From a virus, in IMG/VR virus record IMGVR_UViG_3300033388_005412, positions 62,001 to 126,000 of that record: DNA of 64,000 nt; one strand, 5' to 3'. Positions 20,920 to 48,438 of the stretch are shown here, piece by piece (position 1 is the first letter of the stretch; each line of letters starts with the position of its first letter). Under the pieces are notes generated by a model, which was not told where the DNA came from, did not search any database, and was given only the letters and a program-made list of their open reading frames with translations. The position numbers and the translations under genes were made by a program.

Positions 20920-21606
20920 TCAAAATAAATCCTTTAATTTTTTAACAATATTTAAAGCTTCCGACGCCCTTACCACCATAGTAACATCGGGTAAATGATC
21001 AGGCATACAGAATGGTGGCACGAACGCTTTCGGCAGCATAGACATCATCCCGCTTTCTTTTAACACCACGTTGCTGCGAGTGGGGAAGTCATATTCAACT
21101 ATCTTTCCGAAAACTGATATCTGAGACGGGCTAATAGTTACCAAACTGCCTTCTTCTCCATCACCGGCCGAGCGTAACGCAATAGCATCATCAGAAATCA
21201 ACACCCTGCTTTTGGCACCCGGGAACGACCTGATAGATTTATAGTTAGTTTTAACATTTGAATTATCAATCAACTGAGCAGGCTTCGCCGGTTCTACTGT
21301 ATCAGAATCATTTCCACCATCTTTTTTCATCTTCGGTGTAAAATACGCGAAATGTTTACTGACATCTCTCATATTTGATGAAACATTATCTTCATAAAAT
21401 AAAGTACAGTCAAAATCTTTATCATTTATAGAATAATCCATAATGCCGTTCATATATTGAATTTTGATATCAATAGGAACTTTAGAGAACTCAAAATCAC
21501 CGGCGGTCTTCGGCATAAAATAAATCAACAGCGTGTGATCAGGCAAGCTCCCGGGTTTTTCTTTTGATTTAATTATAAAATTAGAAAGTGTGATCTGCTT
21601 TATCAT
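20920..21606 (-). CDS. Small hub-associated baseplate protein
   Basis: The start ATG 21606 is chosen because AGGAG lies six bases upstream. A longer frame reaches into the hub gene but has no site. The product is 228 residues and overlaps the hub gene by 26 bases. The sequence is beta-rich: GAKSRVLISDDAIALRSAG and SLVTISPSQISVFG look like the strand pattern of an OB-fold or spike-base protein. The neighbourhood (hub, gp25, J) suggests a spike or hub cap. No specific family was confirmed. Confidence 0.75.
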   Translation of the reverse strand: MIKQITLSNFIIKSKEKPGSLPDHTLLIYFMPKTAGDFEFSKVPIDIKIQYMNGIMDYSINDKDFDCTLFYEDNVSSNMRDVSKHFAYFTPKMKKDGGNDSDTVEPAKPAQLIDNSNVKTNYKSIRSFPGAKSRVLISDDAIALRSAGDGEEGSLVTISPSQISVFGKIVEYDFPTRSNVVLKESGMMSMLPKAFVPPFCMPDHLPDVTMVVRASEALNIVKKLKDLF

Positions 21607-24600
21607 TTTCATCTCCTGTCGCGGCGCTAATTGTGTCCACAAAATCAAATATTGAATAAATTTTGTCCATAATATGAACTTTAAAACTATCCTTATACAT
21701 ACCTTCCAGGCCGGCGACATACGGCTGGCCCTTATATGTTAAACCGATGACATCTATACAATCTCTGCCCAGAAATTTTCCAATTGTCCAGCTCATAATG
21801 CTGTTTCCCAATAAAAAAGCCGGAATCACAACAGCCGCTGATATGCCTGTAACCCACGGTAACGCTGTCATTGCTGTGGTATACGCCCCGGATGCCGCTA
21901 TTGCCGAATATACGCCTGATGTTGCAGTGACCGCCACCCCAGCTGCTGTTGGTCCAACACCGGCAGCCAGTGCCCCCGATGCCGCTAATCCACCAGACAC
22001 AACTTCAGCCGCAACACCAGTTCCGACCACCCCAGTAACCGCAATCCCAGTTCCAGCCGCGGCCGTTCCCAACCCCATTGCCCCGACTGCTGCTTTCATA
22101 ATTCCTTTTCCCAATCCCATTGCGCTTCCAAAAAAAGGAACACCAAATCCATTCATAGCAGCAATTTCATATTTTATCACAGGATCCTGCGGATAAACAA
22201 TTGCATTCGGTGTAATAGTCGTTAAAAAACCTTTTTGATCAATTCTTTGAACAACCTGTTCAATTTCAATCGGACCATACATCCCATTATAAAGATCTCT
22301 GATAAAAATAATGTCCCAGACTTTCAACTGGGGCATCCCTAATAATGTTAATGACCCTCTATACATCGGCCGCATCATATTCGCCAGAACATTATATCCT
22401 ATTCTGTAAACAGTTGGAATTCGCCCACCCCAAACAGTTTGAACATTTCTTATAAAATCATTAAACCATTCAAACACCCCGAATGATGATGGGTCTATAT
22501 TATTCTGATATGAAATATAACTCTTCAGGTTACTGGTTTTAATATTATCATCAGCGAAAAATTCATGTGTTCGCCATGCACCGGTATTCGGGTTATCTTT
22601 TGGTTCCTCTGGATATCTTATTTTAACATGATTTGAAATTTCTTCAGAACTAGCTCTGATACTATTATCAACTATGTGTCTCAAACTATCAACATAATAA
22701 TAATTACGAATAGGCATATAGCCCCTTTCAATATTACCTTCTGAGTCTTTCAAATCATCAGGATTTTTAATACTCAGTGCGATGCCAGTTGCTTTACTAG
22801 TTTTATCCTCTTTTGTTTGACGAATTAAATTTTTATTTTCTATTGCATCCAATTGAAATTTGAATTTTAATATTTCTGATTTCGTGTATCCAACATTTTT
22901 ATCCTGTCTGATTTTAATCTTATCAACTGAAAATTTTTTAGTAAATAAATCGCCGGCAACGTCGCTCTTAAAAACATACTCCTGAATATCTGTGATAAAT
23001 TCCATCACTTTCTTTCTATCATTGGCTTTCATAACAATACTTAAACTATGTTCGGGATTTTTTTCAATATATTTATCCAATAATTTAAATATCTCATCAT
23101 ATGTTTGAGTTCTAACAATAGAACTAACAACATCCGCAACACCCCGGGTAATGAAACTTTTAATTCCGGCTTTTACCACACTGATAACACTGGATGACGG
23201 CCGGAATCCCTCTCTGTTTTTTTCACTATATTTACTACTAGGTTCTTTAAAAAAATCAGTCAATCGTTTCAAAAGTTCAGCACGATCCTTTCCTTTCTTA
23301 ACTATTTTTTCCATTTTTTCCCGCGTATCATACGCATCCGTATATTTATAATAACCGTTTCTAGGACCTAAATAAATTGTCTGTCTTGTTAAACCGGGAA
23401 CATTACTATTATATGGCAACACAGCCGCAATGTAATCTTCGTGATACAATGTTATCTCATTCAAAATTTCCCACAACGACTGATTACTTATTCTCCAGTC
23501 AAATGTATTATCTTTATATCGATTTCCTATATCTTTCGATGTCCAACCAAATAAAAATGTTAACCACCCCCCGAAAATATGATCCGTAAATGGTAAATAG
23601 ATATTTTCCAATCTAGGATCATAAGTTCCGAATTTATAATATATATCAACAATCGGATTTATTTTACTTCTGAAAAGATCAAAAAAACGATCTTTCGGAC
23701 TCGTGTAATATGATGTTGGTTCAATTTCAAGCCCGAATCTGGCCAGCATATTCGGACTGCCCATATGGCTTAAGCCTGTTATTGATTTCATAGCATAAAT
23801 AACAACATCACCATGTGTCTGCCCGGCACTGCAAAAACCAACATGATAATTGCCACCATCAAAACACTTCTCGTGTAATTCGGCCCCGAAACTCTGAGCA
23901 ACTATTGAAACTCTGTCACCTTGCTGAACCGACACGACCTTTCCAATAAAAAGTGTATCTAAATTCATTGGATTATTGTCGTATCCGGCCTTTATCATTA
24001 TCGTTGTGCCCTCACGTAATAGAAAACGTAAAACGGTCTGCTCCTGCAGCGTCTGTTCTTTCCTTATATTCTCACCCTGATTTGAATTTTTATCACTTAA
24101 ATTTCCAGTTATGTTACTGACACTTATTGTAGCAACATCCCCAGGTGTGTTTTTATTTGATATAACTTCAATACTTTCTATCGCGTTATATGTGTAATAA
24201 TCATCAATCATACCCCATTCTTTGTTGTCTTCTTCGATAAAATACAATTTTACAGTTGGATATGCACGACTCATATGAAGCGTTTTATCTTTTGCTCTAA
24301 ATCCGTTCGTATAACTAATACATTTATTTAAAAGATCTTCCTCCTCTGTTACCCCAAACTCAGATAACACATTCCATGACTGTAAAAAACTATTATCCAG
24401 CTGATTAATTGTGCTGATTTCATCTATCATGCGGTCTATTTGCCTTTTCTTTGAGTCAAGTGACTCAGCGCCTTCATCGGTTCCCAAGTCAGTTGTTATT
24501 TCACCTTCAAATTCTTGAATTAGTTTATAATATGCCCCGATTTTCAAACAATAATTTATCGATGCTACGTTTTTCAATAAATACTGCGATGTGTTGCACT

Positions 24601-27600
24601 CACCATACCTTCCCTTAACTTCATCGTCTGAAGAATTTAAAAAATTAACATATTTCTTCATCTCATTTTCATCATAATCTTTATTTATTTCAACAATTTT
24701 ATCCATAACTTCTTTTCTGGATTTGCCGCCTTTGCCCCATTTTTTACGCCAGTCTCCGCACAAAAGAGATTTTGATAATTTATCATTGTGTTTTTCAAGC
24801 ATAGATAATCCGGGGGCAAATTGCAATAACTCATCACGTTTATGCAAAAGCGCTATTTTAGTTTTAATGGTATCTCTCAATATTTGATAACTTGTATCAT
24901 TTTGAAATTCTTCTCTAATATAAAAAAAATCGGCCGGAGTTGATAGAAAACCGCTTTTGTGTTCAGGTAATTCCAAATCCTGATAATTACCATAATTGCC
25001 TTTCATATATAAAGGCAACTTAGGGATAAACTGTTCTTTTTTAAAACCGAATTTTGCTATTAATTCATCCTTAGCATATAAAATACATTTTATGGCCTGC
25101 TGCCTTAATAACAAATTAATAATACCGACGGCATATTTTTCAGGATCATGCCCTTTCGGCACCCCAATTGTTGGACTCCATACTGTTCCAGCTGCGAAAC
25201 CAATGCCGGCTCCTGCTAAACCACCAATAAATGTTCCCCACCCTGGAACAATTGATCCAACTCCAGCACCAAATACCATTCCACCTATAGCAAGCGGCAA
25301 ACCCGTATAAAATTTTAATTTTAATGCGAATCGTTCTTTTCTTTCTTTTTTCCAATTGTTATATAAGAATAAATATTTAATAGCATCAAAAATTTCAATT
25401 ATTTTTAATCCACCTTTATATCTTTTTAAAAATTCTCCACGGAAAAAACCCTTTTCATAATTAAACGGTAACCTAACATCGCCGCCTAAAATTAATGCTG
25501 ATACAACTTTTTCATATAATGGAAAATACTTTTTTAATTCAAAAGCATCACTGAAATTTAAATCATAATTATTTATTTGTTCAGTCGCCCAGTCCATTGT
25601 CATGTGACCATATGGCACATCAATTTCGGAACCATATCCAACAAAAAAGAATAATCTCAAAATCATAGCTCGCATATTCTGCATAGCTCTACCGTATATG
25701 TAACTGTCTTTCTCATTATCTTCCGGTAATCTATATTCAGTTATAAGTTTTTTCTTAACATCTTCGATTAAATTATCATCAAAGAAATTCGACGGCACAA
25801 GTCTTTCATATTCCGTCATGTCAATATCAGACTGAACCAGTCGTAACGTCAGATTCCACCACCCTGGTTTGCCTTTAATTGTCTCACATACAAAATCCTT
25901 AAATAATACACGAGTTATGCCCAATACTTTAAAAAGCCCGTTATAATTCAAATCAGGCGGAACTTCTAAACTATTTGTCCTCGCGATAAGTTTTGAAATA
26001 CCAATTCTTTCTCTCAATGACCGGGAAACGCATGCTTTTTTAGATAAAGATTTCAGCACTCTCATCAAAGTTTCATTACATGTCTGCAAATTAACCTGAA
26101 CAACCCAGTCACCACGGCCCATGTACTGTTTTGTCGGCATTGTGTAGTTCAGCACCGGAATTTCGGCCATCCTTGTTTCCAATGACGCCGACATACCGGC
26201 TATAATAGTATCTTCATCCTCGGTGAATTCAAATTTATATCTATTGGTAAAACCATATTTAAGCTTTTTCTGTCGTGCAATCTGTTTATCCATTAAAACC
26301 ATAATTTTTTTTCCGGATGGTATCTTTTCAAATTCATTAACAAATTCCAAAAGTGTATACGGGCCATGATCTTTTTTTAAATCAGTCCCTGGTATATCTA
26401 TAGGAATTGAAATAGTTTTCTCGCCCTTATACGCCTCCGCGAATTTTTTAACACCCCACCCGTAATATGTTGAACCACTTCCATAGTAAAATAAACCAAT
26501 AGTTCGCCAAAATTCAGTCCATGCCCGCACAATAACATTTGTAACTTTAGTTGTCGTGCCGGGCCATTCCAGACTATTAACTAATTCAACAATTTTAAAT
26601 TGTATATCAGCATTTAATTTCAAAATATCATTTTGTAATGATTCGCGCTCCTCATCGCCGAACTCCGTTATATCATATCTGCATTTAAACCGTTTAAAAT
26701 CATTTGTCCCGACCTGACGCAGCCAATTATCCGGCGCAAGAAAATTAAAACCACTTTTAATCGTGGTATTTTCATTCTGTTTAGATAAAGAAGGAACATA
26801 ATTCATTTTGATATCAACATCATCGTCAATTACTGGAAGTCCGGTTAATAAAGGTTTAACATAATTTTCAAATGGTTTGCAATTTGATATATTTTTTGTA
26901 CGATTTATGTTCTGATTGCTGGCATACTGCATATCGTTCGCCGTTTCCGGATACTGTAAATTAGTTATCTGTGAATAATATTCAATCTGTTTCAACGCAT
27001 CTTCATTTGACACGCAAAACTCAAATCCCGATGAATACGGCGAATAATTAAAAACATCCAGCACCAAATTACATTGAAGTGACTCAGGAAACCCCGGAAC
27101 TGTCGACACAACTATTGATTGTAAAGCACATGCAAGCTGAACATCTTCATATATTCCAAGCTCTTTATATTCATCTATCATATCAGCAGCCACACCCGCT
27201 TTACTTATATTTGTTCTTTCCTTTTCTTTTTTGCTTTTGGCCTTTTTTAATAATTTTATATCATTTTCTAATTTTTGAATCTCGGTATTATATTCTTTAA
27301 ATTTCTCAGGATCTGCGGCAAACACATCAAGATTTGCTTTTTTTATCTTTAGTTCTTCTTCCTTCTCCGTTATTTCTTTTTGCTTTTCTTTTATATCAGC
27401 ATCAAAGTAATCAATAACCCCGGCATACGTGTCCATTACAACTTTCTGAAAATTTTCATCAGTTTTTTTAAAATATCCTGCGCCCTGATTCTTATCAACT
27501 TCCCTCTCATAAGACGGTGATCTGTATCTTCCGGGTGATTCCTCCAATTTTTTAGGTTTACTCCACGTTACATCAGGTATTAATAAACTTCTAATGTGCT

Positions 27601-28447
27601 GATTTTCAATCGGGAGAAACGGCGATCTTAAAAACTCAGCCAGTAATTTGCGAAAACTATTATCATAATCCTTCTCCACTTTGCCGTTAATATCCTGCAG
27701 CGATGGAAAAAATATAGTCAATTCTATACGATTATTCTGCTGGCCCGTCTTAATTTTCGGCGTGCCGGCCGTCCTAACCGTATTAATCGGCATGTTAACA
27801 TTCTGTTCCGTTATTGTTATCTGATCAGGTGGAACCGGGAGAATAACAGTTCCTATTTTACAGGCACCGGGAACTTGCAATTCCTCTTCAGCGCCTTTCA
27901 TTGCCTCTATTATTTTACCTGTTCTGGCAATTTGGGCTTTATAACTTTCTTTCTTTTCAGCGAAATCAGCCCGCCTGTTTTTATCAGCTAATTGTGTGAG
28001 ATATTCTTTATTACTAATTTGATCTGTTGACCTGACACTGTCAAACCCATTTCCTGATTTGATAAGTTCAGCATTCATGTTTTTACCATCAACATAAACA
28101 ACACCTAATTGACGATCATACATATCTTCAGAAATTATTGTTTGATCCTGACTTGGATCTTGCTGTAAAAACTCTATTTCTTTTCCAGCTAAATTATCTT
28201 TTGCCCATTGTGTTGCTTTTTCACCTTCTGGTGTGTCTTTTTCATATGCATCAACACCGATGGGCCGAACTACTACTGGATCAGCACCATCAAATGACAC
28301 CCAGTATGTATCACCATCAATAACACCTGTAGGACAGGGACGATCCGGATCTATACTAGGTACTATTTTACCTGTTTTTAAAGGAAAACATTTACTGATA
28401 TTTTTCTTATTTATCGCAGGATCGTATTTTAAATATTCTTCACTCAT
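21581..28447 (-). CDS. Giant baseplate hub protein with N-terminal thermonuclease domain
   Basis: This is a 2288-residue protein. Residues ~38-165 form an SNase-like domain with DGDT (D44, D46), R61, D66, E69 and R112 in the family positions; only the usual Pro of D-T-P-E is Tyr. Residues ~195-300 look like a tail-protein domain (PVPPDQITITEQN). Residues ~1046-1100 are a glycine-zipper hydrophobic segment. Residues ~1400-2080 fit a gpD/gp27-type hub (TLFIGKVVSVQQGDRVSIVA). The end, ~2103-2218, is Ala/Gly-rich and membrane-like. Hub proteins in the family form the central ring and meet the spike. The nuclease may act at the host surface or on entering DNA; this is inference. Its start overlaps a 62-aa gene by ATGA. 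Confidence 0.82.
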   Translation of the reverse strand: MSEEYLKYDPAINKKNISKCFPLKTGKIVPSIDPDRPCPTGVIDGDTYWVSFDGADPVVVRPIGVDAYEKDTPEGEKATQWAKDNLAGKEIEFLQQDPSQDQTIISEDMYDRQLGVVYVDGKNMNAELIKSGNGFDSVRSTDQISNKEYLTQLADKNRRADFAEKKESYKAQIARTGKIIEAMKGAEEELQVPGACKIGTVILPVPPDQITITEQNVNMPINTVRTAGTPKIKTGQQNNRIELTIFFPSLQDINGKVEKDYDNSFRKLLAEFLRSPFLPIENQHIRSLLIPDVTWSKPKKLEESPGRYRSPSYEREVDKNQGAGYFKKTDENFQKVVMDTYAGVIDYFDADIKEKQKEITEKEEELKIKKANLDVFAADPEKFKEYNTEIQKLENDIKLLKKAKSKKEKERTNISKAGVAADMIDEYKELGIYEDVQLACALQSIVVSTVPGFPESLQCNLVLDVFNYSPYSSGFEFCVSNEDALKQIEYYSQITNLQYPETANDMQYASNQNINRTKNISNCKPFENYVKPLLTGLPVIDDDVDIKMNYVPSLSKQNENTTIKSGFNFLAPDNWLRQVGTNDFKRFKCRYDITEFGDEERESLQNDILKLNADIQFKIVELVNSLEWPGTTTKVTNVIVRAWTEFWRTIGLFYYGSGSTYYGWGVKKFAEAYKGEKTISIPIDIPGTDLKKDHGPYTLLEFVNEFEKIPSGKKIMVLMDKQIARQKKLKYGFTNRYKFEFTEDEDTIIAGMSASLETRMAEIPVLNYTMPTKQYMGRGDWVVQVNLQTCNETLMRVLKSLSKKACVSRSLRERIGISKLIARTNSLEVPPDLNYNGLFKVLGITRVLFKDFVCETIKGKPGWWNLTLRLVQSDIDMTEYERLVPSNFFDDNLIEDVKKKLITEYRLPEDNEKDSYIYGRAMQNMRAMILRLFFFVGYGSEIDVPYGHMTMDWATEQINNYDLNFSDAFELKKYFPLYEKVVSALILGGDVRLPFNYEKGFFRGEFLKRYKGGLKIIEIFDAIKYLFLYNNWKKERKERFALKLKFYTGLPLAIGGMVFGAGVGSIVPGWGTFIGGLAGAGIGFAAGTVWSPTIGVPKGHDPEKYAVGIINLLLRQQAIKCILYAKDELIAKFGFKKEQFIPKLPLYMKGNYGNYQDLELPEHKSGFLSTPADFFYIREEFQNDTSYQILRDTIKTKIALLHKRDELLQFAPGLSMLEKHNDKLSKSLLCGDWRKKWGKGGKSRKEVMDKIVEINKDYDENEMKKYVNFLNSSDDEVKGRYGECNTSQYLLKNVASINYCLKIGAYYKLIQEFEGEITTDLGTDEGAESLDSKKRQIDRMIDEISTINQLDNSFLQSWNVLSEFGVTEEEDLLNKCISYTNGFRAKDKTLHMSRAYPTVKLYFIEEDNKEWGMIDDYYTYNAIESIEVISNKNTPGDVATISVSNITGNLSDKNSNQGENIRKEQTLQEQTVLRFLLREGTTIMIKAGYDNNPMNLDTLFIGKVVSVQQGDRVSIVAQSFGAELHEKCFDGGNYHVGFCSAGQTHGDVVIYAMKSITGLSHMGSPNMLARFGLEIEPTSYYTSPKDRFFDLFRSKINPIVDIYYKFGTYDPRLENIYLPFTDHIFGGWLTFLFGWTSKDIGNRYKDNTFDWRISNQSLWEILNEITLYHEDYIAAVLPYNSNVPGLTRQTIYLGPRNGYYKYTDAYDTREKMEKIVKKGKDRAELLKRLTDFFKEPSSKYSEKNREGFRPSSSVISVVKAGIKSFITRGVADVVSSIVRTQTYDEIFKLLDKYIEKNPEHSLSIVMKANDRKKVMEFITDIQEYVFKSDVAGDLFTKKFSVDKIKIRQDKNVGYTKSEILKFKFQLDAIENKNLIRQTKEDKTSKATGIALSIKNPDDLKDSEGNIERGYMPIRNYYYVDSLRHIVDNSIRASSEEISNHVKIRYPEEPKDNPNTGAWRTHEFFADDNIKTSNLKSYISYQNNIDPSSFGVFEWFNDFIRNVQTVWGGRIPTVYRIGYNVLANMMRPMYRGSLTLLGMPQLKVWDIIFIRDLYNGMYGPIEIEQVVQRIDQKGFLTTITPNAIVYPQDPVIKYEIAAMNGFGVPFFGSAMGLGKGIMKAAVGAMGLGTAAAGTGIAVTGVVGTGVAAEVVSGGLAASGALAAGVGPTAAGVAVTATSGVYSAIAASGAYTTAMTALPWVTGISAAVVIPAFLLGNSIMSWTIGKFLGRDCIDVIGLTYKGQPYVAGLEGMYKDSFKVHIMDKIYSIFDFVDTISAATGDENDKADHTF

Positions 28448-28636: not shown

Positions 28637-28672
28637 CTCTATATATACTATTATATTTAACACACATTTATC
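28637..28672 (-). promoter_or_regulatory. Intergenic box related to the other 35-base boxes
   Basis: On the minus strand it reads GATAAATG, then AT-rich sequence, ending in TATATATAGAG. The overall layout matches the four 35-base boxes, but it is one base longer. It overlaps the stop of the 2103-aa gene and the ribosome site of the 62-aa gene. Confidence 0.35.
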
Positions 28673-31600
28673 ATTTTCCGTATTTTTGCAATTTCTCCCG
28701 GACACTCACACTGTCGATATTATATGACGTAGTCGAGAAATTATTTCGTGTATACGCTTTCTGCCTGATTTCATTTTTAAAAACAGGCATCCTCGGTAAA
28801 CTTAAATATTTCTTTTTCTGTATATTTTCAAAACTTTTATTATTAAATAATTCTATATAAGCCTTAGGCAAATCACTTGGATTTCCTAAAGGAGTCTGCA
28901 TTAATTGAGCCCAATCCAATTCCGGTTTTGTAAAAGCATAATCCCACTTCTCACCGCCGTTGCCGGGCATGTGTCCCAATGACCCCATCTGATTAGGCCT
29001 GAACAAATTCAACGCAGCATATCCTAAAGCAACCATGCCGCCGATTCTACTTAAATTACCGGCATTTTTCCATGCGGTTTGCCCAAGTTTATTAACAAAA
29101 TCCTTTTTCATACATTGCAACATTGTTATATCCGAACCCTGTGTTTGAAAATTCAAACCATCCAATAAAAAAGGTTTAACGTGTTCACTGGCAGCTGTTG
29201 CTCCGGGATTTGTAATATTATGTATAATGGCCTTACCAATAGTTGAATTGCCCGATATAAAACTTTGTGTTACCCTATTACCACGACTCCAATAATCAGG
29301 TTGATCCATTTCCGCCGCAACCATCCATTCCCGAGTCCTTACTTTAGCATTTGGACCTAAATGTTTCCGCACAAATGCGGCCGACGACTTACCCGGCAAT
29401 TCAGCATTCCAAAATTCCCCAACTTTAACATCCAATTTCGCCGTATCGTCCATAAACCTCACATTCTTCGGCTCACTAAGATTATACAACGCATTTGAAA
29501 CCTCATCTGAAAGTGTCATAGTTTTACCTTTAACTTTCAAACCCCATTCTATCATCGGAGTTATTTTCCCCAAAAAATCATGTGCTTCGGTTGGTCTCCA
29601 CTTCTGGTCACCCATCAAAGCAATCGCTCTATTAACCAACGGTGTTATTTTAGGCGGCCACGATTTTGGAAATGTTGCCATTTTTTCCATAACCTTTTCC
29701 CATTCACCAGGACTTGATTTCATAAACGCAAATTCATTTCTGATATTTTTCTTTATAATTTCCTTTGCAATTTTCAATGGCTTTAACACACTTGCATGTA
29801 ATTTAGGATCATATGTCGCATATTTTGTGACATCGCCACGTGTAACTGGCTCCAATGCCATCGTAGATGCTTTACTATAAACACCCCTTCTAGTAAAAGC
29901 AGCCTGTGAAAACTCTTTCATACCCTTTGGAGTAATCGCCAAAAAAGCCTCATCACCATCGGAATCACCCCCTAATAATTTTCCGATAACGGATGATATA
30001 CGCATCATATCACCCTTTATAGTACTTCTTGCCCACGCCATGACAGGCGGCATTGACTCACCGCCCGTTGTTGGAAATCTTATTGCAACACCAGGCGCCG
30101 GTATCAATTCCTTTGAAAAGGCATCAGACCATAACTTCCTTATTTGTCCGCCTTTAATACTATTCAAATTGGTTTCCTGAGTTGCTTTAAATAAACCATC
30201 AACGGTCATATCCTTTTCACCTAATTTACCAACTACTTTATTAGCAACCTGCTTCCAATATGGGTGAGCCGCACCAACATGATTTTTATTTCCAGAAATC
30301 CACCCGCCATAATTTTTTAAATATTTCATAACAGAATCCATCTCAGACGATCCCATACTGGTTATCTGCTGCTTAATCATCTTAGCATTATTGTTAACCC
30401 AGTCTTTTGAAACCTGCACTTCAAAGTCCAAAACAGATTTCTTAGTATAATTTCCCAATATACCTTCCGCCCCTGTTATATATGGATCAGCAAACTGAAG
30501 TGTTCCAGTCGCGCCTGGTGCGGAAAATTTCATTCCAGGTGTTATTTTATATTCGCTCATAATATCAAGCATTTTTTGTAAAAAACCACCCGCACCAGGA
30601 GATCCGCTAAGTACCTTTTTCAATAAATTTGCCTGAGTTATCATTAATTGTGATGTTATACTGTGTTTTCCGTCAGTGGCATCAATCCATGGCTGCTCGT
30701 ATAACTGAACAACACTGTTCGACATGCCAAATCTTGTTCCTGGAACTTTAGCAAATGTCGCTTTCGGCGTTTTCACATATCCCAAACCAATTTTCTGAAA
30801 TAAATCGGCGATATCTCTCGGGACTGTTCTGCCCCTAATAATTTGTTCTGATATCAACTTACCCTTTGCTTTCAAATATGTTGGTAATTTCGAATATTCC
30901 GGACTATTTACATCATAAAGCGTTCCCTCAATCTCATGAAATGTTTGATCGGCTATTTTAGCCATTGAGCCCCATTCAGACGGATCACTATGCAAAAACT
31001 TTTTGGCCATTTTTTTAAACTCGTTACCCTCAACTCCTTTTAAAATACTATTAAATTTTTGTATTATATCAACACCGCCCGGTTCCACAACTCCCTGTGA
31101 TATCGCAAACTGCCTACGAAGCTGTCCCATTTTATAACTATTTTGCTCCTGTGCCATATTCAACAATCCTTCAAATAATTTAGAACTGCCAGGCTGATGC
31201 TTTAAAACATTTAAAAAAGAAATATTTAAAGGCACTGTTCCTCCGCCGCGGCCCATAAGCGATTCCAATTGACTAAACCCAAACTGCATATTTGACACTA
31301 GCACACCAGGTGTGAAATCGCCCGGCTGTTGTTTATTAACTAAAGGTCTAACAATTTCAAGAAAGGAAACATATTTCTTTGAAAAAATCTTATCGACAAC
31401 TGCTGAGTCATATGACTTGATTTCGCCAACCATTTTACGGGCTTCTTCGGCCCAGCCTGAAAACTCATCAGGTGACATTTCCCACGCTTTCTGATAAAAT
31501 TGCGAATACATGCTACCGGGTATTGATATTCGTCGTATCAATTCAGAAACAACCGCCCCTTTTTCAGCAGCATCCCATGTTCTATTCATAACAGCAGTCA

Positions 31601-34600
31601 CACCGGCCGCTGACGCTGTTATATTTGAAAAACTAGGAACATCCTGTGTCATCTTCAAACTTTTCATAACTTTAACAATACTATTTAATGCTTTATCATA
31701 ATTTCCGGCAAAAATACTTTCTTTAAACGCATTTGCTTTTATCACTAATTCACCAGTTTGGCGATGAGTTACAACATTCAATTTATCACTTATTCCGGTG
31801 CTCTTAACGGCTCTTACTACCGCAGCCTTTTTATTGGCATCCTTTCCAGCCCATGCTGAAATTCGCCCAAGCATAATAGTTAACATGCCGGCAGGATCAA
31901 CTGTTTTAAGAGTATCATGTCCAACCATCATATCAACACCGTCTGTCATGTCAGCTGTTTCTCTAATTATTCCTTTAGTTAATCCCTTCACCAAAACTTT
32001 CATACCGGCTTTTGCTTTATGTAAATAATCGAATTCTATACGTGTTTTACCTTGATATGATTTAACACTTGTAATTACGGCTTCAGTATTTCCTTTATAA
32101 TGCTGTGCAATGCCATTTAGTACACCAAAAGAATCATTGGGTTTAATAAACTGCCCAGGAGCAAGCTTTTCAATTTTCGTATCAACAATAGCATGTCCCC
32201 CATGACGAACAACCCCGAAACGATTCAAAAATTTTTTATCCATCCAAACCTGCTGCTCATGTGTTTCTTTACTATGCGTAATTAAAACATTCGCCCTATG
32301 CATATAATTTCTAAGTCCACCGTCAAGCATTTCATCTTCAAATAAACCAGGCATAAATGATCTACCTGTCTTATCAACTTTTAAACCTTTCCAATCAATA
32401 TTTCTACCACGGCCAACATCTATGGAAGTTGTGCTACCAAAAAACTGATACAGTGCCCTATGCAACGGCATACCATGAAATTCCGGATACACTTCATCAT
32501 ATGGTAATAATGTTTGTATTCCTCTAATTGATTTATTCGGTGATACAAGTCCTGAGACAAATGGTTTAAATTTAGGAGACATTTTCTCCATGGCATCCAT
32601 ATAATTCGGGCGATTTTTACGAATATTCCAATCTTTTTCGGACCATAAATAATTATCCAAAAAAGCATATAAATTATCTAGTACAGATTCATGCGCCACG
32701 TTTGAGTCATATAATTTTTGCCAACTCATTCCTTTATATAACCTACCAACCAATTTATCAACAAAATTTCTAACACCGCGGGGACCCTGTGGCAGATCTT
32801 CCAAGTATTTTATTCTATTATTAACCAGCGTTCTCAAATGTTCACCTGATAATGATCTATGCGCACCAGGATTTAATTTCATAGACTTTTGCTGATCAAG
32901 TGAACCTTGCAAAAACCTTATCACATCGCCAACTCCGCGACTTTTAGATTTATTTAATAATGTATTGAACGCATCAATATCACCTTGAATATTTTTACCA
33001 ATAACCTGTCCCTTTAAATATTGCGGCAACATTTTTATCAATTCATCACTTGTCACAGGAACAACTTTGTACTTTGCGGAACCCTTCAACGTAGCTAATC
33101 TTTCTCTATTTGCCGTTAACCCACTTATTTTAGCCACAAACTCACGTTTACCCTTTTGTACATCTGTTAGTTCAAATCTTATTGCCTCTTTGATCTCAGC
33201 GCCGTTTTTTGTCTTAATAACATTTAAAATTCCTATATCTTTTATACTATCTACTTTCACACCGTCAACAACAATTTTATCACGACTCATATCAATGTAT
33301 GTCAACACAGAATCCCTTTCTAAAAATTTAGCATGAATTTTCTGTAATTCCGGTAAAGCTGTTTTTTCAAGACCACTCATAAATCCCATAGATTTTAAAG
33401 TTTCTTTATACGGCGCAACATTTAATGATCGTGTCCAATCAACAATATCAACACCAGATACCGGCTCGGCGCCTTTTGTTATATTTCTCATACCCTTGTC
33501 GACCATGCCCTGAACATCTTTTTCAGCGCCTTGTATTAACAAACTCTTATTTTCAGTCGCCATTAAATTCAAAAAATATTTATGTATATTTGCAGACAAC
33601 TTTTGATACTGTTCGTTTGGGTAATTAATATCACCTATTTTAGCCTGTGATGTGATTTTTATAGGAGAAATCGGATCAAATCGCGTGGCCCATTTATTCG
33701 GCATATTCAAAGGTAATTTTATATGCCTGGATTGACCATTTGCTTTATTAAGAGCAACATCAAAAACAAATTTAGAACCGCCTCTGCCGAAATCTTCTAT
33801 GTTAACTGTGATATCATCAAGATTTGCGCCTATGTCGCTCGCTGTTTTTCTTATTAACTGGTAATATTTCATTAAATTATCATATCCCGGGCGAATATAC
33901 CCCGCACCTTTTAACATCTTTCCTGTTTTGGTGTATTTTCCACCAAAAACATCTAAAAGATTAGCGTCTTTAAATACTCTGTCTATTCTTTTTAATTGTT
34001 CTCCGCCTAATTTATTACGAAACTTTTCAACAACATCCCGGCTTATCTCACCTGTTGCTGGGATATCAGATAACAACTCTTTAATATTGGTTGTTGATGC
34101 CAACCTAACAGATTGAACAATATCATTCGGATCATTTACATATTTAGGAAACTCCAGCATTTTATATGATAAATCACTGATTTTCGCAATAGCTGACGGT
34201 ATATCACCAATCTGCTTAACACCCCTCATTTCGACACGAAATTTATTATTTCTGGCTTGGGTGTGATAAAGAAACTCCCTTATCGAGTTTTTATATTCCT
34301 TTAGAATCGAAGCCGGGAGACTAGTTAAACTATCATTATCAAATGAATTAACCTCAAGACTGGGGTGTTTATTAACCATTCTTCTTTTTATATATTCAAT
34401 TGAATTAACATCATCGATATTATCGCTTATATTTTCACCCCATTTTTTAATAACATCGCCACTGGTTGATTTCATAATATTCTGCTGTATCTCTTTATAA
34501 CCAGCAAGCGGATCTTGAATTGATGATGCGCCGAATCCTTTAATACCTTCAGTCATATAGTTCATTTCAAATCTTTTATTTATATCAGTAATCTTTCCAA

Positions 34601-34982
34601 TAGTATTTTTAATATTACCAACATAATCGGTCATAACATTATCAGCATCTCTCGTCAATTTCTTTACCGAATCAATTAACTGTGATTGCCCAGTAGTTAA
34701 CTCCGGAACCCATTTATCCAGCTCAAAAGTGGCACCCGATGTCGCCTGTTTTGTTATTTCATTGTCCATCCACGGGAATAAATTCGCAATGGTTTTTTGA
34801 AACTGACGAAGCGCTTCCGAAGACGGATAATGCAAATTATAACCAAAAATCTTCTTTGTATTATGATATTTCTTCATCAACGTATTCATAGACACACCAT
34901 ATATTCCCGCAAAGGCCGTTATAGAAAATAACCTGGCGCCTAAATTCACATCTTCTCTATCTTTTCTGCTAAAATTTTTCAT
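28671..34982 (-). CDS. Giant RNA-polymerase-like virion protein (two double-psi beta-barrel signatures)
   Basis: This is a 2103-residue protein. Residues 993-1004 read G-M-K-x7-K-G (K995, K1003), matching the beta-subunit motif with both catalytic lysines eight residues apart. A D-M...D-G, then P-x-x-M...L-G-x-I follow, as in beta. Residues 1635-1677 read R-F-P-T, then I-K-G (1655-1657), then D-S-D-G-D (D1673, D1675, D1677), as in beta-prime; the I-x-G to DGD spacing is the same as in Escherichia coli RpoC. Both barrels in one chain, beta type first, is the arrangement of YonO and crAss-like virion polymerases. Ends are hydrophobic (~17-35, ~1981-1995). It starts on a TAATG junction with the tape-measure-position gene, so it is probably a tail-carried polymerase. 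The comparison is from memory of the families. Confidence 0.82.
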   Translation of the reverse strand: MKNFSRKDREDVNLGARLFSITAFAGIYGVSMNTLMKKYHNTKKIFGYNLHYPSSEALRQFQKTIANLFPWMDNEITKQATSGATFELDKWVPELTTGQSQLIDSVKKLTRDADNVMTDYVGNIKNTIGKITDINKRFEMNYMTEGIKGFGASSIQDPLAGYKEIQQNIMKSTSGDVIKKWGENISDNIDDVNSIEYIKRRMVNKHPSLEVNSFDNDSLTSLPASILKEYKNSIREFLYHTQARNNKFRVEMRGVKQIGDIPSAIAKISDLSYKMLEFPKYVNDPNDIVQSVRLASTTNIKELLSDIPATGEISRDVVEKFRNKLGGEQLKRIDRVFKDANLLDVFGGKYTKTGKMLKGAGYIRPGYDNLMKYYQLIRKTASDIGANLDDITVNIEDFGRGGSKFVFDVALNKANGQSRHIKLPLNMPNKWATRFDPISPIKITSQAKIGDINYPNEQYQKLSANIHKYFLNLMATENKSLLIQGAEKDVQGMVDKGMRNITKGAEPVSGVDIVDWTRSLNVAPYKETLKSMGFMSGLEKTALPELQKIHAKFLERDSVLTYIDMSRDKIVVDGVKVDSIKDIGILNVIKTKNGAEIKEAIRFELTDVQKGKREFVAKISGLTANRERLATLKGSAKYKVVPVTSDELIKMLPQYLKGQVIGKNIQGDIDAFNTLLNKSKSRGVGDVIRFLQGSLDQQKSMKLNPGAHRSLSGEHLRTLVNNRIKYLEDLPQGPRGVRNFVDKLVGRLYKGMSWQKLYDSNVAHESVLDNLYAFLDNYLWSEKDWNIRKNRPNYMDAMEKMSPKFKPFVSGLVSPNKSIRGIQTLLPYDEVYPEFHGMPLHRALYQFFGSTTSIDVGRGRNIDWKGLKVDKTGRSFMPGLFEDEMLDGGLRNYMHRANVLITHSKETHEQQVWMDKKFLNRFGVVRHGGHAIVDTKIEKLAPGQFIKPNDSFGVLNGIAQHYKGNTEAVITSVKSYQGKTRIEFDYLHKAKAGMKVLVKGLTKGIIRETADMTDGVDMMVGHDTLKTVDPAGMLTIMLGRISAWAGKDANKKAAVVRAVKSTGISDKLNVVTHRQTGELVIKANAFKESIFAGNYDKALNSIVKVMKSLKMTQDVPSFSNITASAAGVTAVMNRTWDAAEKGAVVSELIRRISIPGSMYSQFYQKAWEMSPDEFSGWAEEARKMVGEIKSYDSAVVDKIFSKKYVSFLEIVRPLVNKQQPGDFTPGVLVSNMQFGFSQLESLMGRGGGTVPLNISFLNVLKHQPGSSKLFEGLLNMAQEQNSYKMGQLRRQFAISQGVVEPGGVDIIQKFNSILKGVEGNEFKKMAKKFLHSDPSEWGSMAKIADQTFHEIEGTLYDVNSPEYSKLPTYLKAKGKLISEQIIRGRTVPRDIADLFQKIGLGYVKTPKATFAKVPGTRFGMSNSVVQLYEQPWIDATDGKHSITSQLMITQANLLKKVLSGSPGAGGFLQKMLDIMSEYKITPGMKFSAPGATGTLQFADPYITGAEGILGNYTKKSVLDFEVQVSKDWVNNNAKMIKQQITSMGSSEMDSVMKYLKNYGGWISGNKNHVGAAHPYWKQVANKVVGKLGEKDMTVDGLFKATQETNLNSIKGGQIRKLWSDAFSKELIPAPGVAIRFPTTGGESMPPVMAWARSTIKGDMMRISSVIGKLLGGDSDGDEAFLAITPKGMKEFSQAAFTRRGVYSKASTMALEPVTRGDVTKYATYDPKLHASVLKPLKIAKEIIKKNIRNEFAFMKSSPGEWEKVMEKMATFPKSWPPKITPLVNRAIALMGDQKWRPTEAHDFLGKITPMIEWGLKVKGKTMTLSDEVSNALYNLSEPKNVRFMDDTAKLDVKVGEFWNAELPGKSSAAFVRKHLGPNAKVRTREWMVAAEMDQPDYWSRGNRVTQSFISGNSTIGKAIIHNITNPGATAASEHVKPFLLDGLNFQTQGSDITMLQCMKKDFVNKLGQTAWKNAGNLSRIGGMVALGYAALNLFRPNQMGSLGHMPGNGGEKWDYAFTKPELDWAQLMQTPLGNPSDLPKAYIELFNNKSFENIQKKKYLSLPRMPVFKNEIRQKAYTRNNFSTTSYNIDSVSVREKLQKYGK

Positions 34983-37900
34983 TATGTATTATAAACCATA
35001 ACACGATTGCTGCCGCCTAAACTCGGCGTTAGTGAAATCGAACCGTGAACACCAGCCCTGTCAAGCGCGATTTCAATTGTCCGCTTTATTTCCATATAAT
35101 TTTGAGTTGGTGTGTATGCTATGCCACCCGTCGGGTTTTCCATATTAATTGGCATAATACCCGGACTATTTGCCACTCTCCTGGCCTGGCGGTAATGACC
35201 GAGACCAAAATCATGAGACTGAAGACCTTCATTTTCAACTGTAACAAGTTTAACATCATCAATCGGAACTTCCGGCGCATATACCGCTGAATTAGGATGC
35301 GGCATCGGCGAAACCTGCTGTTTACTTACCACCATATCAATTGCTCTGCCGTCAATCGCGTTCCATTTAGTTTCAAGTAAATGACCCGTTTCGGCCGGAA
35401 CATATTTTAATATATTATCTCTTTCTTCCGGATCAGTTGTTTGTAAAAACGACACAATATGCTGTTTTTCCTGCGGGGGTGTGGCACGATACATATACGT
35501 CCATCCCTTTCCACTTTTATCACTGGGTAATAAACCCATCATCGTACCGCGGGCCTCGTCTAAATATTGCTCATCTCCTGTCATCTGATATAGCATATTA
35601 TTTTTGGTATATGTTAATTGATCAAAATATCTATTAATTTCACGACCCTTTCTAACACTCGCCGGTATGTATGTCGAACCTGTCACATCATTAACCACAC
35701 CATGAACTAATCCATATGCAGCCCCAACTGCCGCACCGGCTGCAGTACCAAGTCCAGGTCCGCCCACGAGTGTCCCAGCCCACGCACCGGGAATCGAACC
35801 TTGAAATGCTGTTGTTTTTGACATAAATCCCCGAGAATACGCATCAATCCAATGGTCATACGGCTCTGACCACATCTTAACACTTCTTCCATATAACATA
35901 TCTCTTTTGTATGCTTCCAATGGTGTTCTATATGGAAAAAACTTCCTGGAAAACGGCAAATCTGCATGCGACACCGTCTCCCAGACGCTTCCCATGAATC
36001 TCTCAGGTAATGAATATTCACTTGCGGCTTTTATATCCTCATTTAATGACATATTATTATATTCCGAATCAGGGGTTAAAACTTTTCCCCTAAAGCGATA
36101 TGGAAAAAGCTCTTCCTTCATCATGATCGCTTTTCTTTTTTTCAAAATTTTATTTAAACGATCTTCATGATCATACCCACCCATCATTTGCGCCTTTACA
36201 ATATCTAACTCCTGTTTGTATTCAGGACTGTATGGGCCCGTGTTCGCAAGAATATTTAGTCTATCGATATGGCTATACCCTTCAGTTCCAAAACCAAGCC
36301 CCCTGGAATACAATTCACCAGCCATGTGTCTAGCTTGACGAACCGCCGCGATGTCTCTGTCATATCGTTTTTCACTATATGTAGCGGGATGCATGGCCAC
36401 AGGTTTTCCACGCCACTGGTATTGAATATTGCCTTCATAAGTTCCGGTTTGCTTCATATAAAAATTAATCTCAGATATATCCTGTTCAGTCGGACCTATA
36501 AAACTATTTAATTCACTATCACTTAAGTTTTTAATTTTTTGAACAGATTTTCCACGAGTTCCTCTTATAATACCGTCATGCGCACCACTGATATTATTAT
36601 ATGCATCATACACATTAGCACCGGCCATTATCTCTCTGTTTTTACGATCTAATTCACTGGTTGCTCTTTCCAATCCTCTCTTGGGATATAGTCCCAAAAA
36701 CATACGGGTCACATCAGGCACACTCATACCCATCATCTCTCCCATCGCTGGCCATGTGAAATTAATATCAAATGCCGTTTCATGCCCCAAACCAGGAAGT
36801 AATAACTCACCCATTGGAATTTTCGAAAAAGGATTACCAGTTTTATACTTTTGAGTCATCCAAGACGGCATACGGTTACAATTATGAAGTAACATAAACG
36901 GCGTTGTGAATGATTCGCCTTTCTCAACTTGAATATCATAAACATTACCATTATAATGTTTAGTTTGAACATCAGTAACCATGGTAAATAAGATATCATC
37001 TTCGAAAAAATGTCTATGCCAACTTGATTTTTTATTATTTCGTAATTTCTTATTTTTTATTTTTATTTTATACCCATAGTTTTCATTTAATAATTTTACT
37101 AATTTTTCCTCATATTCTGATAAAAGAGTTAAATGATATGATCCTGTTGGTTTATATAAATGAACACAAGAAACACATTTAAACTGTAACAACAAATTTC
37201 TTAATGATAAAATTAAGGATAAAGATGGACTACTTGACTTTATAGCACACACATTGGATTTAATTGACCCATCGCCTTCAAAATGACCATGAAATAAACC
37301 CAAAATAAATTCTTTTGGGAAATGATATAATATAAAATCATCAATATATTTATTCTTTGCCCCTGACCCAAATAATTTTGAAAATAATTTATTATAAAAT
37401 GTAGAATAAATATCAATTTCAATACCATTTAAACTTGCTTTATATATATTTCCTTTAATATTTTTATTTTTAAACCATTTTAAAATATCCAATGCAAGAG
37501 TATTTCGTTCATCTTTATGTAAAGCAAATTTAACAACATGACCTTTTGAAGATGAAGATCCCTCACTCAAATATAAACCACAAATAAATCCAAAATTATA
37601 ATCTAATTCTATAAATCTATTATATCTTTTACCACAACCTTGTCCATTATATTTCCAAATTTTATCACCATCATTCCGATTATAATATTCTGACATAAAA
37701 TCATCACAATCTAAAGTTTGATAACACTCATCTGTTTTTAATATAGGATATCCAACAAAATCATATTTACTGATATCTTCAATATTTTTCCACTCTGGTT
37801 TATAATCTCTGTATTGTTGCCTTGTTTTATATCTTTTTTCATTAAAAGTATTATATCCGCATGTTCCACAAGATTTATATAATCGATTTTTAACACACAC

Positions 37901-40900
37901 TATATTTCGCTCTGGATGACTATGACAAAATTTAGTTTTTATAACATATAAGGGATGGTTATGTGTTAACCACACATTTTCAAAATTGTTATATAATCGA
38001 ATTTTATATACTTTCTCATTAACTAGTCTACTACTTTTTTTAATAACTTTTGTATAATCAAATCCAAAAACATTAGCACCTTTTTGTATATCTTGAATTT
38101 CTACAACTTTCATATTTTTAGTTACAATCATACTATCTTCAGTTAAACATATAGGATTAACAGTTTCAATCTCACCACTCATACCCCTTGGCCGCGGCAC
38201 AAGTCGGCGCCAAAGCTCTGTATTATGAACCGCAATACCTTCTGCAACATAATAATTTAAATCTTGTATCTGTAAATCGTACACATCAACATTTTTATCA
38301 TTTAATTGTTCAACTTTTTTAACTTTTATAAATAATTTATTATCATAAATAAAAGAATTTCCATTTTTAAAATCAGAAATATCCATACTTTTATCATATA
38401 ATAAATTATATATGCCAATAGATGACTGCTTATTCCAATGAATATAACTACTAATGCCCGGCTTTCTTATTGTCCCTTGAGGTAACAATCCACCACCTTT
38501 ATCATGATAATTTAAAACTAAATTACCATAAAAACCCAATATAAGTCCAATATCAAAAACATCCTTCACAAAATTAGACGAACACGAATGAAATCCAGCT
38601 TTCTTTATATTAGAATAACCATCTCCAAGTTGAACACCCTTAAAAAATTCCGAAACAATTTTTTTAGAAGATGATTTTATTATGTAATCTATTTTCTTAT
38701 TCTCAGCTCTTTTACCACATAATTGTGTAGCTAATATAGATAACGGTATACATTGTATTCTTAAAATTAATGTATTGTTTTTTACTTTTAATGTACCAAA
38801 ACTACCAAATTTAATTCGAACAATTTCTAATATTTGTTTTGCATATGCTATTTCATTTTTGTTCATCACAAAAGAAACTCGTCCTCCCTTTTCAACATAA
38901 CCCTCAGCCGCATACCATCCCAACAAATATGAAATACTCTCATCAATTTTAACATATCGATTAAACTTATATATTGTTACTCCACGTCTATGTTCCCGTA
39001 TAGCATCTTTAGCAATTTTATCAGAAATTCCATGATCTCGTAATTCTTTACGAGTATAAAAATTACTTGAAAGTAATTTTCGCGCCTTAATATATGATAT
39101 ATACCTCTGTTTATTTTTTATATTATTTGAATACATAAATTCATTATCGTGATACCTATCAGTATACTTTGATAAATCAATCACATATTCTTTCCCTTTC
39201 GGCTTTACAATTGGAACGACACAATAATCGCCCGGTTTGATGTCCTTAATATTTGTATCACACACCTCGATCTTGCTATTTCTTCGGGAACAAAAAAGAC
39301 ACTTCGCTTTATTTCCAGGAATACATGGTCTTGTATTTTTGTGAGAACTATCAATACACCTCGTTCTTTTAAATATCGGAATATGGTGTTTTGATGTTCC
39401 TATTAATTCAGTATTAATAGTGGCCAATTTCATCTTATATAAATCAGATGCTTTTTTATGAATTTTATCAACAACATTATGTAACTCGCCGTCTAACGAT
39501 AAAACTTTATCACCAACATTTACATCAATAATTTTTTTTAATCCATTATCGGTCGAAATATCAGTATCGGATAGAAAACATGCACCAGTTGGGTCGCCCA
39601 TATTCTGATCCCAAAATGCTCTTCTGAATGATGTGATGTCATTTGATGACGCCAATACCGGATTATCCTCAAACGTACGAGCGAAGCCAAGCATTTTTTT
39701 ACTCATTGTCTCGGCTCCGAAACCCCATAATCCCATATATTCAGTTAAATTATATAATTGTTTATCAATTGTTGATTTCACACCTGAAGCACTCATCGGC
39801 GCAACACCTCTCATTTCAGCGGTTCCCGGTATAAGCGGATTATCTCCGCCGCCTATTGTAACAGCACCGCCCTTAAATGCCGAAATATCGCCATGACCTC
39901 TGCCTGCATAACCCATTGACGATAATGCTCTGTCAACCTCTTCTTTATGCATTTCACGCGGCGGTAATATAGTGCGCCCAACCGTTGCGGCCAATGTTGG
40001 ACCAATAATAGGAAATTCTGAAAAAGGTACACCAGTCATTGGAAATGGCTGAGAATAATAATGACGGAACGCGTATCTTCTGCTTCCACCAAGAACATAA
40101 CCTAACGGATTAAAATCCAAAATCGGCAATGGTTTATATAAAAGCTGTTCAAGAGGATTTCCCAATCCTTCCGGAGTTGACTTATATTTTGATTTTGTCC
40201 TGGCAAACCAATTCGGTGTGAACATTTGTGTGCGATTGCCCTTCCATTGTCCACTGCTTAAAAGCCACCAACGACCTTTTCTATACGGAACCTCTTCTCT
40301 ACCGCTATATATTTCTTCTAACTCATCCTGAGATTTAGTTATATCAAATGCACCAAAACCCTGTGTCGCGCCCAGGCCGATGCCCATCAGCATACCATAT
40401 CCTGCTCCAGCCGGACCACCCCAAATTCCACCGATTTTTGCGCCTGCGGCAATTGGAACAACCGCGCCGCGCATTGCCCTCATAAACGGACTATCAATGA
40501 AACCAGGCATTAAACCTTCAGCATATTTGGCCGAATCTGTTATGCCCAAATCATCATTGACACGTGCAAAAAGCATTCGCCCCTTGACACCCTGTTCCGC
40601 AATCGCCGTGTTAAGACCCTCGTCAAATACAGTCCCGTCAAATAATGGATTCTGATCAGTTAACTTGTCGGCTATATCCCAGGCATTTATAGCTCCGGCA
40701 ATTGGTAAAACACGCTTCATCATCACACCTCTTGTGAATAAATCAGCGCCTGTTTTATATGCTTTCGGATCCAGACCAAGACCAAACCACTCGAACAATC
40801 TGGCTGATCTATTAATTGCGGCCTCAGAAAACACATTATTGAATAAAGATGATTTTTCTCCAATACCTGGCCAGAATCCATATAAACTTGTTACATCTGA

Positions 40901-46521: not shown

Positions 46522-48438
46522 TTATTGATTAACAAGGTACTGATAATTGAACGGAGTATTTCCATTTAATCCAGCAACTGTCTGTTCCCGACGAGAACCT
46601 GTAAAAATAGCGCCGGTCGGAATACCACCCTCTGATCCTTTCCTCTCCATCAAGTCTATATCCATAGCAACATATGACATTGTGTTTTCTGTATAGACAT
46701 CCTCGATAGAATGTGTTTGACCCTCGTCGGCGACTTGTATGCCGTATATGGCCATTGTTGATTCTAAACCGAATTCATTAACATAATTTAATATTATATC
46801 AAATGAAGGTAACTGATGCGCGATGACAACTTTTTTTGTCACATCACTTTTTGATTTTGATATGTCCCATAATGCACGCTGATTAAATACATTAAATATC
46901 ATTGATCCGGCGATTGTAATTGAATTATGAGATAAAAACATACCAAATAAATTATGATTATTATCGATCTCTAAATCATATGTTTTAAAAACTCCTATTT
47001 TTTTAATTTCTTTTATTTTAACCCATTTAAATTTCTCATAACAAGATGGTTTATATTTCCGTAAAAAATCAAAAATATGTTCACCTAATTTTTTCAACAT
47101 TTCATATGTAATTGTTTTTGAATTAAGTGTTGATATCCCAGCCCCAAATTTCTTTCTAATATTCAATTTATTATGTTCAATATAATCTCGCAAATCCTGA
47201 TATTTATATCCTAAATTATTCTTTAAAGATTCTAAAATATTTTCGTATCTTTCTTCTTTGCCAAAAATTCCAATTTCTGTTAAAAATCTATAATGATATT
47301 CCGCAGGTATAATAACATTATATGAATCATGTTTTCTTATAATACCCCATTTATTTTTCCTATTTTGTTCTTCATTTACCGGATTAAACCCTATATATGA
47401 ATATATACCCACTTTAGACAACAACTGCTTAATTTGAATAGCTAATTTATGGGAAGTTGTAGAATACGAAATTCTCACAGAATCATTTATTTTCTTTTTT
47501 CTAACATGTATAGTTCCGTCTGTTCCCCAAATTCTGTTCAAAAATAGTTGGGTTTGCGATATTGACATATTCATTAATAAATCAGGAACAGTTTTTTCAT
47601 ATGATTTTTTGCCATAAATTCCCAACGAACGTGTCCAAATAATGAATGGTTTGTAAATTCTTTGAGCCCAACCAGTTGATTTTTCACAATTATGAATTGT
47701 AATATTATAACAATTTCTATCAAATCTTTTATGATACGACAAATTATTTTTTAAACATTCATCTTCAATGTCCTTAACAATTTTCGCATCATAAACACCG
47801 GGTGTGAAAGAAAACCGCTTTTCTTTACCATTTTTATATAAACCAAATACACCATCACCAATTGAATATGCCATAAATTTTATATAATAATCAGGAATAT
47901 TGATATCATCATTAACTCCATAATCTAATGGGATCATTAATTCATCATTAACAATTAATTCAGAAACCGTTTTCCATCCTTCTTTAGTATAAACTAAATG
48001 TGTTTTAGTTAAATCCATTTTAGAACTATCTTGTAATAAAACAGAATAACATTCCTGTGAACCCTTATAAAATTTATTAGTGCACTTTTGGTATGAAACT
48101 TGATTGTTCTTCTCATCCAAAGATAAAATTTTATCACCAATAAAAATATCTTTTACTTTTTTATATCCTTTATCAGTATAAATAAGTTCATCACTAGCGA
48201 TACATCCTCTTGTAAATCCGCGAACTCTGTTACGCCCAAGTGTTCTGACGGCGCCCTTATCCTGATGTATACTGTAACTTAAAGTTGCTATATCTCCGAT
48301 GACAAAAATTTGATCTTTGCCTTCCCGATCCCGGCCGACACATACCGGGATAATATCGCAACCACTATATGTTGATCTCTCACGCCAGGGGGCTGTATCC
48401 AGACGAAAAAATGGTGTGTCGGCACCCCTGTTTTCCAT
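46522..48438 (-). CDS. Tail tube protein interrupted by an intein
   Basis: The precursor is 638 residues. The intein covers residues 79-505, so the spliced protein is 211 residues. The exteins join as ...VRGFTRG + SITIAGSMIF..., which matches the core of the 227-aa tube (RSKRGIAGSMI). The C-extein has a tube-like ending (TMSYVAMDIDLME). In the family, tube rings stack inside the sheath. It sits one gene after the sheath. Without splicing the tube could not form, so splicing probably decides whether the tail is made. Confidence 0.88.
   Translation of the reverse strand: MENRGADTPFFRLDTAPWRERSTYSGCDIIPVCVGRDREGKDQIFVIGDIATLSYSIHQDKGAVRTLGRNRVRGFTRGCIASDELIYTDKGYKKVKDIFIGDKILSLDEKNNQVSYQKCTNKFYKGSQECYSVLLQDSSKMDLTKTHLVYTKEGWKTVSELIVNDELMIPLDYGVNDDINIPDYYIKFMAYSIGDGVFGLYKNGKEKRFSFTPGVYDAKIVKDIEDECLKNNLSYHKRFDRNCYNITIHNCEKSTGWAQRIYKPFIIWTRSLGIYGKKSYEKTVPDLLMNMSISQTQLFLNRIWGTDGTIHVRKKKINDSVRISYSTTSHKLAIQIKQLLSKVGIYSYIGFNPVNEEQNRKNKWGIIRKHDSYNVIIPAEYHYRFLTEIGIFGKEERYENILESLKNNLGYKYQDLRDYIEHNKLNIRKKFGAGISTLNSKTITYEMLKKLGEHIFDFLRKYKPSCYEKFKWVKIKEIKKIGVFKTYDLEIDNNHNLFGMFLSHNSITIAGSMIFNVFNQRALWDISKSKSDVTKKVVIAHQLPSFDIILNYVNEFGLESTMAIYGIQVADEGQTHSIEDVYTENTMSYVAMDIDLMERKGSEGGIPTGAIFTGSRREQTVAGLNGNTPFNYQYLVNQ
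46924..48204 (-). mobile_element. Intein in the tail tube gene, LAGLIDADG type
   Basis: It is 427 residues (79-505 of the precursor). It begins CIASDELIYT, has block B DLTKTHLVYT and ends FLSHN, with Ser +1. Endonuclease blocks are YSIGDGVF and IWGTDGTI. All splicing residues are present. The insertion is at the most conserved strand of the tube fold. The four-cysteine knuckle seen in the other two inteins is absent. Confidence 0.95.

Follow-up and report, generated by a model that had tools for sequence, protein, structure and literature searches.

An uncultured virus has, immediately upstream of the gene for its baseplate hub, an open reading frame (ORF) of 2103 aa, P0001, and the question that it raises is whether this giant tail-module protein is purely structural or contains an RNA polymerase (RNAP). 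We favour the second answer, with a probability of roughly 70 %: P0001 would be a divergent single-chain, two-barrel virion RNAP that is fused to a tail-module protein and ejected for early transcription. The phage lineage as a whole probably carries its own RNAP in the virus particle, since the signature is found in about thirty distant relatives and a related subfamily has an RNAP-like predicted fold. For P0001 itself we infer the fold and the catalytic activity, a place in the virion, ejection from it, the use of promoters and the early-gene role.

The locus and its genome setting

The window, by which we mean the whole 64,000-nt stretch of DNA that was analysed, comes from the 203 kb record of an uncultured virus. 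Among the phage records that were searched, matches to its portal and hub occur only in MTATph1 (Moorella), KLEB27-3 (Bacillus) and ME3 (Acinetobacter), a group related to Bacillus phage 0305phi8-36 (PMC5000817, PMC2147016), and the window is a jumbo myophage of the 0305phi8-36/ME3/KLEB27-3 type. The features that define the locus are as follows.

34982..28671, minus strand: P0001, ORF of 2103 aa with its translation; proposed virion RNAP
21581..28447, minus strand: neighbouring baseplate hub, 2288 aa; tblastn matches to the hub/baseplate proteins of ME3, KLEB27-3 and MTATph1
34982..43537, minus strand: neighbouring tail protein, 2851 aa; occupies the ME3_35 position
28674..29060, minus strand: C-terminal module of P0001; hydrophobic, possibly membrane-spanning stretch IGGMVALGYAALNLF and C-terminal tail

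The P0001 gene is placed between the genes for the 2851-aa tail protein and the hub, in a tail/virion module; ME3, KLEB27-3 and relatives that are uncultured share this gene order. The protein at this position in 0305phi8-36 has been named a tape measure, mainly on the basis of tail length (PMC2147016), and the same phage encodes a separate putative YonO/QDE-1-like RNAP, orf99 (PMC2147016, PMC7824862). The hydrophobic stretch and C-terminal module of P0001 recur in relatives across the clade. At one locus (L115, 4920-5501) a protein of 193 aa replaces the giant and keeps only these two elements, as though a relative could dispense with the polymerase part.

A proposed active-site motif in P0001

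Three short motifs in the C-terminal half of P0001 had been compared with the β′ subunit, RpoC, in a preliminary description of this DNA.

29952..29966, minus strand: D1673-S-D-G-D1677, proposed Mg-binding triad of a β′-like barrel (DPBB-A)
30069..30080, minus strand: R1635-F-P-T, R-x-P motif ahead of DPBB-A, continuing as GGESMPPV
30012..30020, minus strand: I1655-K-G, present in P0001 and not conserved in its homologues (alignment A8)

The translation bears out the R1635-F-P-T1638 and D1673-S-D-G-D1677 motifs and the 38 residues between them, and D-x-D-x-D occurs only once in the 2103 aa, at D1673. D-x-D-G-D alone arises in 2.7 % of residue shuffles of P0001 (n=20,000), while R-x-P-T followed by D-x-D-G-D at a distance of 30-42 residues was seen in none of the 20,000. 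The exact alignment claimed between I-K-G and the I-E-G of RpoC stands on one side only: taking the RpoC spacings to be 17 residues from R-x-P-T to I-E-G and 18 from I-E-G to the Asp motif, the latter distance is the same in P0001 (18) and the former is not (20 versus 17), which implies extra residues between R-x-P-T and I-K-G. What the homologues conserve is R-x-P...PV and D-x-D-x-D. The serine at the second motif position, previously singled out as worth attention, sits where residues vary freely (F, Y, K, T, H, N, I, V, W, M and S occur), and some relatives have A, Q, S, K or D in place of G1676.

Homologues at the same gene position

Searches with the single P0001 sequence gave no match in Pfam, PHROGs, the PDB by sequence, phages by tblastn or two scans of viral contigs. 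As P0001 alone finds no relatives, the portal and the hub served as the way to its homologues; a portal alignment led to 145 related viral contigs, and in many of these the hub-upstream gene was then located with hub alignments. The syntenic proteins of the named phages carry recognisable versions of the signature, NRYPT...KADYDGD in KLEB27-3 gp034 (2434 aa) and SREP...GGDHDQD in ME3_36 (1603 aa).

All 33 syntenic proteins counted contain D-x-D-x-D. In 31 the motif and the C-terminus are 380-640 aa apart (in L117 the distance is 991 aa), and in all except L158 (32/33) it is preceded by R/K-x-P within about 130 residues. One of the proteins, L135, is truncated by the contig end; its Asp motif is seen, and its R/K-x-P was judged from alignment A6. 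The motif at that C-terminal distance is expected in 1.2 of 33 proteins from shuffles and occurs in none of 46 other large ORFs of the same loci. The count includes a few pairs from the same or near-identical viruses (e.g. L116, L140) and leaves out L115, L123, L152, L160 and MTATph1, where the domain was not seen at the hub-upstream position. In L161 a DFDGD is found one ORF further upstream.

The three aspartates, whose fate in close homologues had been proposed as the check on the motif, are kept. The closest homologue of P0001, L146 (1440 residues aligned, 22 % identity, blastp E about 1e-48), retains D1673, D1675, G1676 and D1677 together with P1637, K995 and K1026, and has Lys for R1635 and Arg for K1003. 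Further out, a 15-sequence alignment (A8) has seven invariant columns, among them D1673, D1675, D1677 and P1637, with R1635 nearly invariant, and the three Asp persist in it at an overall identity of 13-17 %. A wide MAFFT alignment of P0001 with L147, L148 and L156 misaligned the motif and was discarded.

Predicted fold of a related subfamily

Two lysines, K138 and K144, are invariant in a subfamily formed by ten of the related proteins (L130-L140), which also has R-x-P...S-x-Q and the Asp triad. Its 831-residue core, modelled from the 10 sequences with AlphaFold2 without templates, reached a pLDDT of 77.6 and a pTM of 0.70. In a Foldseek search of the PDB the 50 best matches listed were all RNAP chains (50/50; E 3e-5 and up), at low TM-scores (0.14-0.21) and moderate E-values. 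VIA-align placed residues 4-305 on β subunits (Z about 9.9) and residues 361-819 on β′-type chains (Z 10.8 for Pol IV and 9.9 for Escherichia coli RpoC), and the best whole-length match was QDE-1, covered by residues 18-829 (Z 10.4); all 50 of its rows are RNAPs, other folds being absent among the matches listed. The subfamily core is accordingly predicted to fold like cellular RNAP, and the β′-like reading of the motif gains support both from this prediction and from the triad kept in relatives.

A search of BFVD with the same model returned ME3 proteins and many viral RNAPs. To judge from its length, one of these ME3 proteins probably represents the second half of ME3_36; an ME3 match of 798 aa has the same length as ME3_309. 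Neither phi14:2 gp66 nor P23-45 gp96 is among the fold matches listed, which has no bearing on kinship.

Linking P0001 to the RNA polymerase fold

AlphaFold2 applied to residues 860-1960 of P0001 gave an unusable model (pLDDT 37.8, pTM 0.24), so that we infer its own fold from alignment and synteny. A hidden Markov model (HMM) made from the subfamily and five intermediates, with P0001 left out, scores P0001 above all shuffled and reversed sequences (E 0.002-0.003) and recovers L153, L157 and L154 at 1e-55 to 1e-33; the best-scoring stretch of P0001 (E 0.002) is residues 1253-1357, off the motif. At the motif itself, D1673 is placed on the family triad in all four MAFFT modes, and hhalign pairs residues 1627-1654 with the family consensus RHPxIGxxSxQPV. 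Pairwise hhalign of P0001 against the RNAP-fold subfamily is local and weak (E 0.003-0.02); profiles of the window protein and L146 fall on the motif region, with reversed controls scoring below them. A PDB search with the sequence profiles A4 and A7 found no RNAP.

Among family models, PF00623 (RpoC domain 2) matches only this gene in KLEB27-3 (E 7e-5), G017 (4e-4) and G012 and G013 (6e-4), the last two being contigs that are probably one virus; the scores of 16-20 bit are under the curated cut-off. In a whole-Pfam scan of KLEB27-3 gp034 it is the sole match (E 0.015). P0001 and G000 have no match to any RNAP family, including PF00623 and PF05183 (YonO/QDE-1/RdRP), and PF00562 gave no match. 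As a separate observation, G014, which also has a tail-module giant, carries an ORF of 593 aa (L141, 82535-83113) that is over the PF05183 cut-off.

A β-like second barrel (DPBB-B) would be expected to supply catalytic lysines, and the candidate region is as follows.

31905..32042, minus strand: candidate DPBB-B lysine region, residues 981-1026, HKAKAGMKVLVKGLTKGII...VDMMVGHDTLK, with K995, K1003 and K1026

Three of the four MAFFT modes pair residues 992 and 995 with K138 and K144 of the subfamily, and the fourth pairs 995 and 999; of the three lysines listed, L146 has Arg only at the middle one. Another candidate, SSK1267LFEGLL, scored in one HMM and is without a second lysine. We prefer K992-K1003 because, with this region included, all four modes place the subfamily lysines in it.

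Alternative explanations

A first alternative is that P0001 is a two-barrel polymerase with a role other than early transcription, such as replication priming, RNA-templated synthesis as in QDE-1 or DNA synthesis as in archaeal PolD. QDE-1 is indeed the best whole-length structural match, its listed entries including both RNA and DNA templates, and PolD has the same barrels (PMC10770324). The location in the tail module is, however, better suited to an injected enzyme of early transcription, as in P23-45. Replication proteins are usually encoded outside the tail module, and we consider such a role unlikely.

A second is that P0001 descends from an RNAP and has become a structural, tape-measure-like tail protein, its polymerase activity lost and its fold serving assembly or DNA contact. 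The name given to the 0305phi8-36 counterpart points this way (PMC2147016), as do the variation at G1676, the Arg that stands for the second DPBB-B lysine in L146 and the fact that L115 manages without the domain. Yet the three Asp have persisted while nearly everything else was altered, which points to catalysis, and the subfamily keeps K138 and K144 without exception; we therefore regard loss of activity as distinctly improbable.

A third reading, in which P0001 is a large structural protein whose short motifs resemble an RNAP by chance, could draw on the frequency of D-x-D-G-D in shuffles, the missing family-model match and the unusable model of P0001, but in view of the motif in 33 relatives at one gene position against 0/46 neighbouring giants, and of the subfamily's predicted RNAP fold, it is hardly credible for P0001 and very unlikely at the level of the family.

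Comparison with known RNA polymerases

If P0001 joins a virion RNAP to a tail-module protein as proposed, its nearest parallel would be gp96 of Thermus phage P23-45, in which a tape measure protein and a virion RNAP form one chain and which was found through D-x-D-x-D (PMC10770324). Both are giant tail-module proteins with this motif, which is the only recognisable sequence similarity to known RNAPs, and some relatives of gp96, like some of P0001, are without the RNAP part (PMC10770324). They differ in that gp96 has 5002 aa, serves as tape measure for a long non-contractile tail and carries its RNAP in the N-terminal part (DFDGD at 779-783), whereas P0001 has its motif at residue 1673 of 2103, in the C-terminal half, belongs to a contractile-tail phage, adjoins the hub and has only a putative tape-measure role. 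The crAss-like phi14:2 gp66 is likewise a single chain with two barrels and large fused parts of unknown function (PMC10770324), as proposed for P0001, but is from another phage group, and no sequence match between the two was found.

The YonO/QDE-1/PF05183 RNAPs, including 0305phi8-36 orf99, share the single-chain two-barrel design proposed for P0001; orf99 differs in being a separate gene in the non-structural right arm (PMC2147016). The PhiKZ/AR9-type RNAPs are jumbo-phage enzymes of the same catalytic motif class with virion and non-virion forms (PMC7598289, PMC7824862). Unlike P0001, which is one chain with no family match, they are split over several genes and are recognisable relatives of β/β′.

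ME3 itself encodes two further proteins, ME3_307 (DVDGD) and ME3_309 (798 aa, GLKAVTKGKPYLGKI), at L163 (ME3 222114-226849), that look like the halves of a split RNAP. If this reading holds, ME3 would have a separate RNAP beside that of the tail module. A search for the ME3_309 protein, run without a positive control, did not find it in G000 or 13 relatives.

Proposed mechanism

We propose that D1673-S-D-G-D forms the catalytic Mg site on DPBB-A, and that the β-like barrel with its catalytic lysines would lie near K995, about 670 residues before the Asp motif. P0001 probably forms part of the tail or the baseplate hub and, by analogy with P23-45 gp96 (PMC10770324), may enter the cell together with the DNA, where it would transcribe the early genes of the phage with no need of the host enzyme. 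The hydrophobic C-terminal module could anchor the protein in the tail and later, during transcription, at the membrane. The GenBank label of KLEB27-3 gp034, 'structural protein', fits a location in the virion and is suggestive only.

Significance

Virion RNAPs have been described in P23-45, crAss-like, N4-like and PhiKZ-like phages, and a YonO-like RNAP in 0305phi8-36 (PMC2147016, PMC7824862). In the literature consulted, taking PMC10770324 apart from its supplementary survey, we found no report of an RNAP at this position in the 0305phi8-36-like clade. We give an even chance to the wider proposal that a deep, unrecognised lineage of single-chain virion RNAPs is widespread in 0305phi8-36-like jumbo myophages, the 0305phi8-36 'tape measure' being a tail-built, ejected RNAP. 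If true, this would account for a tape measure whose assignment relied chiefly on length, allow a host-independent start of transcription throughout a clade of large phages with poor annotation, and extend the tail-protein-fused RNAP known from P23-45 to contractile-tailed phages. Together with the separate non-virion RNAPs of some members, it would mean that the clade makes its own enzymes for both early and later transcription. It would also add a very divergent new branch to the two-barrel RNAPs, a group used in reasoning on the origin of transcription.

Other features of the neighbouring genes

The hub has an N-terminal SNase (staphylococcal-nuclease-like) domain (PF00565), and a similar nuclease-like domain has been described in the BtI1 hub (PMC2147016). 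KLEB27-3 gp034 (L006, 26004-33305) and MTATph1_0027 (L004, 30512-34438) have a region in common (E 5e-9) that by eye resembles a DnaQ-type exonuclease, and in MTATph1 a gene labelled transposase sits between MTATph1_0027 and the hub. The 2851-aa tail protein contains two intein-like insertions, at residues of about 1317-1780 and 1800-2220 (Pfam Intein_splicing, LAGLIDADG_3, Hint). An ORF of 638 aa (46522-48438, minus strand), whose C-terminal part matches phrog_9206 'major head protein', has an intein-like middle part that weakly matches a PHROG which also matches the intein-like stretch of the 2851-aa protein.
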